This document shows positions 16,045 to 59,571 of a stretch of DNA of 64,000 nucleotides, piece after piece; positions within the stretch are counted from its first letter, which is position 1, and every line of letters starts with the position of its first letter. The stretch lies in NCBI GenBank assembly GCA_005222125.1, contig CP029202.1, positions 1,240,001 to 1,304,000 on the forward strand, read 5' to 3'. The notes below the pieces were generated by a model. That model saw only the letters and a program-made list of their open reading frames with translations, was not told where the DNA came from and ran no database searches. The DNA comes from Spiroplasma melliferum (lineage in GTDB: Bacteria > Bacillota_I > Bacilli_A > Mycoplasmatales > Mycoplasmataceae). The position numbers and the translations under genes were made by a program.

Positions 16045-16468
16045 TGGTGGAGATGGCGGGAATTGAACCCGCGTCCACAAATAATGTTCTAATACCTTCT
16101 ACAGTTTAGTCTAATCATCTTTCTTTCATTATTTAATAATAGGACTAGACAACTAATTAAATAACTAGATAATAAGATTTTCAAAATTCTAACATTATCA
16201 ATTAGAATTTCTATTAGATTAAGACTTGAGATACGATAATAGTTAATAATCTATAATTAACTATTATTACGGCTAGCAATCCTCTAACAACGAGGAATTA
16301 AGCTGCTAACATTGAACCTGGTAGTTGATTGTTCATCAACGAAACTGGAATTTCAATTTTGTCTTCTTTTTGTTTTTTGTTTGCGTTTCTTCAAACCTAG
16401 TAGCATTATAGTCTGCCAAACTACTGCCAATATTAGTAGATCATTCCTGTCGAAACCGGAACATCCCC
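16045..16468 (-). ncRNA. ssrA: Transfer-messenger RNA (tmRNA)
   Basis: About 424 nt. The 5' end GGGGATGTTCCGGTTTCGAC pairs over seven bases with the 3' end CATCTCC followed by A and encoded CCA; the TGGCGGGAATTGAACC block on the plus strand is the T-arm. The tag frame runs from a GCA resume codon at 16384 down to TAA at 16298-16300 and encodes 28 residues, beginning ANKKQKEDK and ending SMLAA, the C-terminal AA degron type. Together with SmpB it rescues stalled ribosomes and marks the product for proteolysis. Confidence 0.95.
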
Positions 16469-36689: not shown

Positions 36690-36858
36690 TAAAAGCAAAG
36701 GCAATTAATCCATTTGGTTAATTGCCTAAAACATTATTTAAATAATATAAAAACATGTCATTGTTCTATATCTCAATAATGCCTCGGCAACATAATTAAG
36801 ATTTAATAAAATCCGTTGCTGTCTATGGTATTTTGATGACTATGGTACAATACCAAGT
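36690..36858 (-). promoter_or_regulatory. L10 (rplJ) leader RNA
   Basis: About 190 nt between promoter and rplJ. The minus strand reads ...AGACAGCAACGG... and GTTGCCGAGGC, the kink-turn and loop motif of the ribosomal L10 leader, followed by a strong hairpin AGGCAATTAA / TTAATTGCCT before the ribosome site. Known role in the family: autogenous repression by L10(L12)4. Confidence 0.75.
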
Positions 36859-57478: not shown

Positions 57479-57508
57479 AAAAAACATTTCATTCTTGAAA
57501 TGTTTTTT
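57479..57508 (-). terminator. Terminator after fba
   Basis: Stem AAAAAACATTTCA / TGAAATGTTTTTT directly after the fba stop. Confidence 0.8.
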
Positions 57509-58397
57509 ATGCCTTACCTTTGCATCCAAATCATGATGTTAATTCATCAAATGTTGTTTTAATTGCTTCATATCCAGGTTTTAATAATTTTCGTGGGTCA
57601 AACCCTTTTCCATTTTCTGGTTTGTCTTTTCCCTCTTCAATATATTTTCTTGTGGCAACAGCAAAAGCAATTTGTAATTCAGTATTAACATTTATTTTAC
57701 TAATTCCTAATGAAATCGCCTTTTTAACTTGTTCTTGTGGAATTCCACTACCACCGTGTAAAACCATTCCAATTTTTGCAGCAGCTTGAATATCTTCTAA
57801 AGCTTGAAAATTTAAACCTGGTCATCCTGTTGGATAAGGACCATGAATATTTCCAATTCCTGCAGCAAGGAAATCAATTCCTGTTGCTACCATTTCTGCA
57901 GCTTCTTTTGGATCACCAATTTCACCAGCACCAACTACACCATCTTCTTCTCCACCAATTGTGCCAATTTCAACTTCAACTGATACAGCATTTGTTTTTG
58001 CATATGCTACTACTTCTTTTGTATTTTTTAAATTTTCAGCAAATGGATGGTGACTACCATCATACATTACTGAGGAAAAACCAGCATCAATTGCCATTTT
58101 ACAACTTTCTACTGATTGACCATGATCTAAATGTAATGCTACTGGAACCGTAATGTCTAATGAGTCTAATAACGCATTAACCATTGCAACAACTAAATTA
58201 TAACCTCCCATATATTTAATTGCTCCTTCTGAAGCTCCTAAAATAATTGGTGTTTTTGTTGCTTGTGCAGCTTCTAATAAAGCTTTTGTTCATTCTAGGT
58301 TATTAATATTAAAATGACCAACAGCATATTTATTTTGATGTGCTTTTTTAATTAGTTCACTAGCATTAACTAATCTAGCATGATATTTTTGTCCCAT
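57507..58397 (-). CDS. fba: Fructose-bisphosphate aldolase, class II
   Basis: 296 aa. Zinc-binding HLDHGQSVE, SVEVEIGTIGGEEDG, GIGNIHGPYP and VLHGGSGIP, followed by SKINVNTELQ, are the class II aldolase motifs in order. Cleaves fructose-1,6-bisphosphate in glycolysis, the main energy route of this organism. Start at 58397 (MGQKYHARLV) after AAGGG. The upstream 340 bp contains a possible regulatory or independent RNA. Confidence 0.97.
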
Positions 58398-58582
58398 AAT
58401 TCTTTTTCCCTTCTAATATAAAATATTACGTTAATATTATAAACTTTTTATTTTAAAAAATAGTATAAAACAAAGGAATTTATTAATATTTGTCTAATTT
58501 ACCAAAATTTACCAAAAAGAAAGAAAAAAAATAGAATTTTTAGAATTCTTGTTCCCTTTTTTAAAAATCCCGTGTTATAAAT

Positions 58583-58741
58583 AAAGTACTATATGGCAAC
58601 ATATAGTAAACAAACAGAGCTTATCATTACCTGATGGATGGGCCTCCTAAAAGGTAATACCCAAAGATAGGTATCCGTTAGTAAATAGTTTTTTCATAGT
58701 TTTTTCTAAAGGGCATTTCTACTCAAGAGATGCCTTTTTAT
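58583..58741 (+). ncRNA. Candidate structured non-coding RNA
   Basis: In the 340-bp gap between fba and mutM. Plus-strand reading: hairpin TACTATATG-GCAA-CATATAGTA (GNRA tetraloop), then ATTACCT paired with AGGTAAT around GGATGGGCCTCC, then ATACC / GGTAT, then an intrinsic terminator GGCATTTCT...AGAGATGCC with a T-run (58709-58740). An extended -10 TGTTATAAA lies just upstream. On the other strand it would be a leader for fba followed by its own terminator-like hairpin (58533-58548). Not matched to any family I know; strand favoured by the tetraloop and terminator. Confidence 0.45.
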
Positions 58742-59571
58742 TTTAATTTTTGGCAATAATTACAAAAATAAGTTCCACGTCCATTAATAAAAATTTTATC
58801 AATTAATTGATGGCAATTAAGGCATTCCATTTTATTTCGCCCATGTACTTTTAATTGTTGTAAAAATTTACCATCCATCCCTGGTTCAGGATGGTAAGTT
58901 GCAATTGTTGTCCCTCCTTCATCAATAGCTTTTTGCAAAACTAGTTTTGTATTCTCAATAATATTTTGATAATCTTGATCAACTAAATTTTTTGTTCTTT
59001 CACCAGGATGAATTTTAGAGGCAAATAAAATTTCATTGGCATAAATATTCCCAATTCCAACAATAACATTTTGTTCCAATAATGTTGTTTTAATTGGCTG
59101 CGATTTATTTTGTCAAGCATTCTTCAAATATGAAACTGTAATCTTTTCATCAAATGGTTCATATCCTAACTTATTCAATGGTGCTTGTTGTAAATAATCA
59201 TTTTTACTATATAAATGCATTGTTCCAAATTTCCTTGTATCATGATATCGCAATTGAAATTGATGATCAAGTTCAAATAAAACCATAATATGTTGTCATT
59301 CGCCAGGTTCATCTTTTGATGTAAAATAATATTTGCCTTCCATTCGTAAATGACTAATTAAAACATAATCATCCAATATAAATAATAAATGTTTTCCCAT
59401 TCGATCAATTCGATTAATTTTTTGTTTAACAATCTCTTTTATAAATTCCTTTGAATCAAGAGGATATTTTATTATTTTATTTCAAAAAATTTGACAATCA
59501 GTAATTGTTTTTCCAACAACATGTTTTGTTAAAATACAACGAACCGTTTCAACTTCTGGTAATTCTGGCAT
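58738..59571 (-). CDS. mutM: Formamidopyrimidine-DNA glycosylase (Fpg)
   Basis: 277 aa. Starts MPELPEVETV with the catalytic Pro2 and Glu3; central GIGNIYANEILFASKIHP; zinc finger of the CxxC type at the end (CLNCH...CNYCQ). Removes 8-oxoguanine and related lesions. Lies 105 bp downstream of polA, a common pairing in Mollicutes and Firmicutes. Confidence 0.97.

Follow-up and report, generated by a model that had tools for sequence, protein, structure and literature searches.

The 64,000-nucleotide stretch of Spiroplasma melliferum DNA analyzed here (contig CP029202.1, henceforth the window) carries on its plus strand, at positions 58586-58745, a predicted small RNA gene, the reality of which is highly probable given its fold, the covariance-model matches and the identity of its body among relatives. 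The sequence features of this locus point to a genuine, new, lineage-specific structured RNA gene, the product of which is most likely a regulatory small RNA (sRNA); the kind of sRNA is a known one, but Rfam has no entry for this family. The best overall explanation, to which we give a probability of about 0.5, is that the locus is an independent gene for a trans-encoded sRNA, whose tail would act as an antisense element at the start regions of mRNAs. Regulatory RNAs seem to have been described only rarely in Spiroplasma, whose cells have few transcription factors and no recognizable Hfq or CsrA. A strongly conserved sRNA would offer an entry point into post-transcriptional control in these insect- and plant-associated bacteria.

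The predicted RNA is approximately 150 nt long. It opens with a GNRA hairpin at its 5' end, continues with a compound hairpin in its center and closes with a U-rich tail and a terminator, and it is preceded by an extended -10 element, TGTTATAAA (58573-58581). This element, already read from the sequence in the first-pass annotation, lies at a constant offset in all 14 main copies of the RNA (13 nt before the start of the covariance model in 13 and 14 nt in one), and also precedes the second copies present in two genomes (G016 and G018, see below). It agrees with the core promoter of S. melliferum given in PMC5138195 (strain KC3), in which 240 transcription start sites are mapped and the promoter consists of the extended element and TAWAAT, most often 6 nt from the start; the same study counts 23 conserved transcription factors in this species. 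Transcription is predicted to begin at 58586-58588, slightly downstream of the position 58583 from which the RNA was originally taken to extend, while the original end at 58741 stands. At the 3' end, the intrinsic terminator proposed earlier was recovered as a stem-loop of 13 pairs (58708-58738) followed by a T-rich tract, in which the transcript is predicted to end after 58738. It is the only one found between 57000 and 60500 by a scan that requires three G-C pairs, as against an average of 0.8 in shuffled sequences, and the hairpin is retained in diverged copies (G016/G018 and G014/G026) in which its sequence has been replaced.

The RNA lies between two minus-strand genes which, following the first-pass annotation, we take to be fba (fructose-bisphosphate aldolase, 57507-58397) and mutM (58738-59571); the former is transcribed divergently from the RNA and the latter convergently with it. 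Several genomes show that this neighborhood can be altered with the RNA remaining whole. In G025 fba and the RNA are separated by a 1.3-kb gap containing transposase-like reading frames, and both the RNA and its promoter are intact; the inserted frames are in two pieces (L055:2389-3700). In G024 a transposase-like frame directly follows the unbroken RNA, and in G016 and G018 the intact RNA is followed by a gene other than mutM, so that mutM is not the downstream neighbor in any of these three genomes. Because insertions separate the RNA from fba in one case and from mutM in another, it appears to be a gene of its own. Thus, in silico, the locus has its own promoter and terminator and is separable from its neighbors, as is the case for genes of trans-encoded sRNAs.

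These observations also bear on an earlier suggestion that the same DNA could serve, when read from the minus strand, as an fba leader that senses a metabolite. The element lies close to fba in the genus, and on the minus strand a hairpin at 58533-58549 is followed by T8. This hairpin, previously described as terminator-like, is indeed an A+T-rich inverted repeat, but it is absent from the terminator scan requiring three G-C pairs. The minus-strand fold of the 353-nt fba leader region is ordinary (z -1.35, with 9 of 100 shuffles as good), and the conserved promoter and terminator serve the plus strand. Moreover, a TATAAT near 58436-58441 places the predicted fba promoter between the element and fba, and would leave a leader of only about 30 nt that excludes the DNA of the RNA; the transposase-like frames of G025 further part the two. 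A leader function is therefore highly improbable, and the minus-strand hairpin probably ends transcripts arriving from mutM before they reach fba. The gap between fba and the RNA also contains a tandem direct repeat, two units of AATTTACCAA at 58496-58515 (GGTAAATTTNGGTAAATT on the minus strand). Allowing at most one mismatch, this repeat is found in 11 of the 14 genus genomes, always in this gap, and at only six other places across all 14. It is a candidate operator common to fba and the RNA.

The phyletic pattern of the RNA is restricted to the genus Spiroplasma. Of the 14 genus genomes among the 60 family genomes searched by blastn, 10, the window's own included, gave almost complete copies at 84-100% identity, and the other four gave only pieces. 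A covariance model built from 14 sequences, after inspection of the four genomes with pieces, places the RNA beside fba in all 14 (E 2e-38 to 5e-17). An fba homolog is present in all 60 family genomes, but the 46 outside the genus yielded no RNA with this model (best E 0.024), and no convincing homolog was recovered from 284 further genomes of the order search, a set that includes family genomes (best E 0.022), or with laxer filters from 32 of the 46 (best E 0.0185). By eye, the weak matches at 12 loci outside the genus, along with weak ones in G017 and G023, were seen to be coding sequence or unrelated terminators, this reading covering the matches other than L109, G259, G152, G282 and weaker ones. 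Nor was the RNA found by eye in the region upstream of fba at 16 loci of other genera. Its presence in the genus only implies that it is clade-specific at this search sensitivity.

A scan against Rfam 15 gave no match at the locus at gathering thresholds; at a relaxed threshold the best match there had an E of 1.3, far below its gathering score, and none was relevant, in keeping with the first-pass annotation, which had not recognized a family. Elsewhere in the window, Rfam matches the tmRNA (16045-16468) and a ribosomal protein L10 leader (36739-36846), both on the minus strand. An origin or target in phages or plasmids was considered and set aside: blastn returned seven phage records and one plasmid record over short stretches with E of 0.04 or worse, and none of the matches was from Spiroplasma.

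Among the ten close copies, the body of the RNA is 95-98% identical and the flanks 78-86%. Hairpin 1 has a mean pairwise identity of 0.984, hairpin 2 one of 0.953 and the tail one of 0.970 (22% of the cells of the tail are gaps due to an 11-nt unit). The value drops sharply toward the promoter and the terminator, to 0.790 for the -10 stretch and 0.818 for the terminator, and the spacer on the fba side has 0.778-0.860.

The strong plus-strand stems noted earlier are borne out by the predicted fold (-43.2 kcal/mol, z -3.90), which was equaled by none of 200 shuffled sequences; seven other copies folded singly gave z of -3.5 to -9.7. Hairpin 1 (58587-58608) has the nine base pairs and GNRA loop originally described, with GCAA closed by 58587-58595/58600-58608. 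Its loop is GUAA in G016 and G018, and in G014 and G026 a C-G pair has become U-A with pairing maintained. Hairpin 2 (58610-58682) consists of an outer helix (58610-58625/58666-58682), a 3' bulge (58659-58665), a middle helix (58626-58632/58652-58658) followed by an internal loop, and an apical GGA(UGGGCC)UCC (58636-58647). The same plan of apical GGA...UCC, internal loop, middle helix and 3' bulge is common to the citri group and G016/G018, and is realized with a different sequence in the latter: the middle helix is AUUACCU/AGGUAAU or CCAGG/CCUGG, and the bulge has 7 or 6 nucleotides, the second of each pair being that of G016/G018. There are unpaired positions within the middle helix in G017 and G020, and in G020, the one exception, this helix is missing from the predicted fold. 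Across the diverged copies as a whole, the GNRA hairpin comes first, and the free tail and an intact terminator hairpin of replaced sequence come last. The loop of hairpin 2 at 58641-58649 reads GGCCUCCUA or nearly so, with ACCUCCUUU in G018, and resembles the 3' end of 16S rRNA (the anti-Shine-Dalgarno); no such loop is present in G014 and G026.

The covariance search across Spiroplasma genomes called for in the first-pass annotation thus returned compensatory changes in addition to the matches: in the 14-row alignment both sides have changed in 10 of the 32 pairs. The covariation score of 0.207 was matched by none of 500 shuffles and fell to 0.032-0.114 when the pairing partners were slid. 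This signal stems from comparing three diverged groups, namely the citri group, G016/G018 and G014/G026; within the ten citri-group relatives alone no significant covariation was seen, with 146 of 500 shuffles scoring as high.

The conservation of the locus could in principle reflect a short mRNA, given that 8 of the 10 copies in the citri group have an open plus-strand frame of 25 codons (MATYSKQTELIITWWMGLLKGNTQR) beginning inside hairpin 1. However, this frame is shortened to 13 codons in G020, to 8 in G023 and to 6 in both G016 and G018, and is replaced by an unrelated 18 codons in G014 and G026. It has no Shine-Dalgarno sequence, and its start codon is buried in the hairpin a few nucleotides from the predicted 5' end, making such a reading very unlikely. 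On the minus strand the tail contains a frame, MKKLFTNGYLSLGITF, which reads AGAAAAAACUAUGAAAAAACUAUU like the start of a lipoprotein, raising the idea that a leader peptide is the reason for the conservation of the tail. Given that the six main copies with a single unit in the tail lack such an ATG, and that the frame differs in G017, G016, G014 and G026, this has the slightest of chances. Frames on both strands are therefore broken or unrelated between groups, as is typical of non-coding RNA.

The most conserved part of the RNA across the diverged copies is the mostly single-stranded, U-rich tail CCGUUAGUAAAUAGUUUUUUCAUAGUUUUUUCU (58675-58707), the first residues of which, CCGUU, are able to pair at the foot of hairpin 2. 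In the window the tail includes two 11-nt units (58685-58695 and 58696-58706). The unit, ATAGTTTTTTC, occurs once or twice per copy and is one T shorter in G014 and G026; in 6 of the 14 main copies it is present only once and CAU is lacking. On the fba tree the number of units must have changed at least five times among the 14 genomes, with four of these changes being forced by well-supported branches, and it is as scattered as shuffled labels. Two genomes possess a second copy, shorter than the main one and upstream of it (L031:2284-2387 in G016 and L032:2506-2609 in G018). In each of these, the extended -10 is followed by a single simple hairpin, which takes the place of hairpins 1 and 2, by the retained tail and by a terminator of its own. 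The survival of the tail in copies so reduced suggests that it is the working part of the molecule.

Candidate targets of the tail were sought with a custom gene finder and a custom signal-peptide rule, both of them simple and crude. Among the weak blastn matches of the tail in the genomes, 21 were inspected. Of these, 13 are antisense to the ATG of an open reading frame with 60 aa or more, and each of the 13 frames begins with MKK and is signal-peptide-like; another three matches resemble genes of this kind that have been truncated. For the window's own genome (G000), 464 kb with 362 gene starts were sampled. Here the ten best duplexes between tail and starts have a mean of -24.87, while shuffled tails average -20.25 and none of 169 reaches so low a value, and the tail prefers signal-peptide genes more strongly than any of the 169 shuffles. 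One gene of G000 has a perfect complement of 22 nt in its start region. When the tails of other genomes were tested in the same manner against their own genomes, shuffles equaled the top-ten duplexes in 32 of 100 cases for G016, 74 for G014 and 7 for G022, and the signal-peptide preference in 5, 3 and 1 of 100, respectively. A test confined to the region upstream of the start codon, which excludes an effect of codon usage, found permuted seeds as low in 15 of 60 cases for G000 and G016, 1 of 60 for G014 and 2 of 60 for G022. Along the RNA, the preference for starts over gene interiors, measured as top-ten difference, peaks in the tail in G000 (-6.26) and G016 (-4.38); the tail windows of G014 show a small preference (-0.65 to -1.59), and in the one-unit G022 the greatest lies at the junction of tail and terminator (-3.15). 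When the more 5' portion of the tail was used as a search pattern over the whole genus, its complements were in no excess over a reversed control. A near-perfect complement (one mismatch) at position 673446 of G000 was rejected as a target, being located inside a coding frame and having no counterpart in G015 at up to two mismatches. On the whole, the target preference is significant in G000 and weak or absent in G016, G014 and G022. The bias toward the lipoprotein class may reflect, perhaps solely, the complementarity of UUUUUUCAU to any ATGAAAAAA (U6-CAU against ATG-AAA-AAA).

This uneven target signal leaves some room for the RNA being a scaffold or decoy, one that captures an RNase or RNA-binding protein through its structured body and U-rich tail and does not pair with mRNA. 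The conservation of the tail sequence without a clear excess of targets over controls outside G000, and the persistence of the architecture while the sequence changes, would fit such a role. However, the second copies retain just a simple hairpin and the tail, and the best-known partners are missing: models of Hfq and CsrA detected neither protein in any of the 14 genus genomes, with control matches in 5 and 3, respectively, of 14 well-known genomes. We accordingly consider this alternative rather unlikely. The absence of detectable Hfq and CsrA also speaks against an Hfq-dependent sRNA and a Csr/Rsm-type decoy RNA, and implies that pairing, should it take place, would need no chaperone or would rely on a different protein.

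Antisense action at translation starts remains the favored mechanism. Layout, conservation, structure, the conservation of the tail and the variation of its units are seen directly in the sequence, and from them we infer an RNA that would be transcribed from its own extended -10, from the base of its first, GNRA-capped hairpin to its own terminator. This RNA would be stable, with the hairpins protecting and presenting the single-stranded tail, which as the working part could pair with A-rich mRNA around start codons and block translation; the length of pairing would depend on whether one or two 11-nt units are present. Action of the RNA as an antisense through its tail falls somewhat short of even odds in our estimate. 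The likeliest targets would be mRNAs of lipoproteins and secreted proteins starting AAAAAACUAUG-AAAAAACUAUU (MKKLL...), since the best genomic matches of the RNA fall there in antisense. That lipoprotein starts are its main targets is doubtful at present, though directly testable. A more speculative extension, for which the chances are slimmer still, is that of an Hfq-free, genus-specific sRNA whose tail is antisense to the whole class RBS-AUG-AAA-AAA-CUA of signal-peptide and lipoprotein genes, globally damping the synthesis of surface proteins, with slippage of the 11-nt unit (one turn of the RNA helix) as an evolvable switch of pairing strength.

In the small-RNA literature on Spiroplasma no title appears to describe this RNA, in a search that mostly leaves subscription papers outside its coverage and many results of which lack the word Spiroplasma. 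Among known systems, RsaE/RoxS are trans-encoded base-pairing sRNAs of Firmicutes, and Rfam holds such families. The present RNA resembles these in being a short intergenic RNA with its own promoter and terminator, a C-rich loop (CCUCC) and a single-stranded pairing region. It differs in showing no sequence or covariance match in Rfam, and in having a U-rich tail whose complementarity extends to start regions and is not confined to Shine-Dalgarno sequences. The MCS4 RNA of Mycoplasma capricolum has been described as U6-like, the U6 motif being ACAGAG. It is likewise a small RNA of a related mollicute, and the citri-group copies of our RNA contain ACAGAG. Compared by description, the two differ in that this motif is lost in G022, G021, G023, G016, G018, G014 and G026, and in that no homolog of the Spiroplasma RNA was found in the other 46 family genomes; the U6-like lead was dropped as ACAGAG is not conserved among the genus copies. 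Finally, PMC5088518 reports predictions of putative trans sRNAs for Mycoplasma hyopneumoniae and its relatives. The RNA described here comes from a different lineage and has no convincing homolog outside the genus in the 284 further order genomes, and shares with those predictions the standing of a computed sRNA candidate in Mollicutes.
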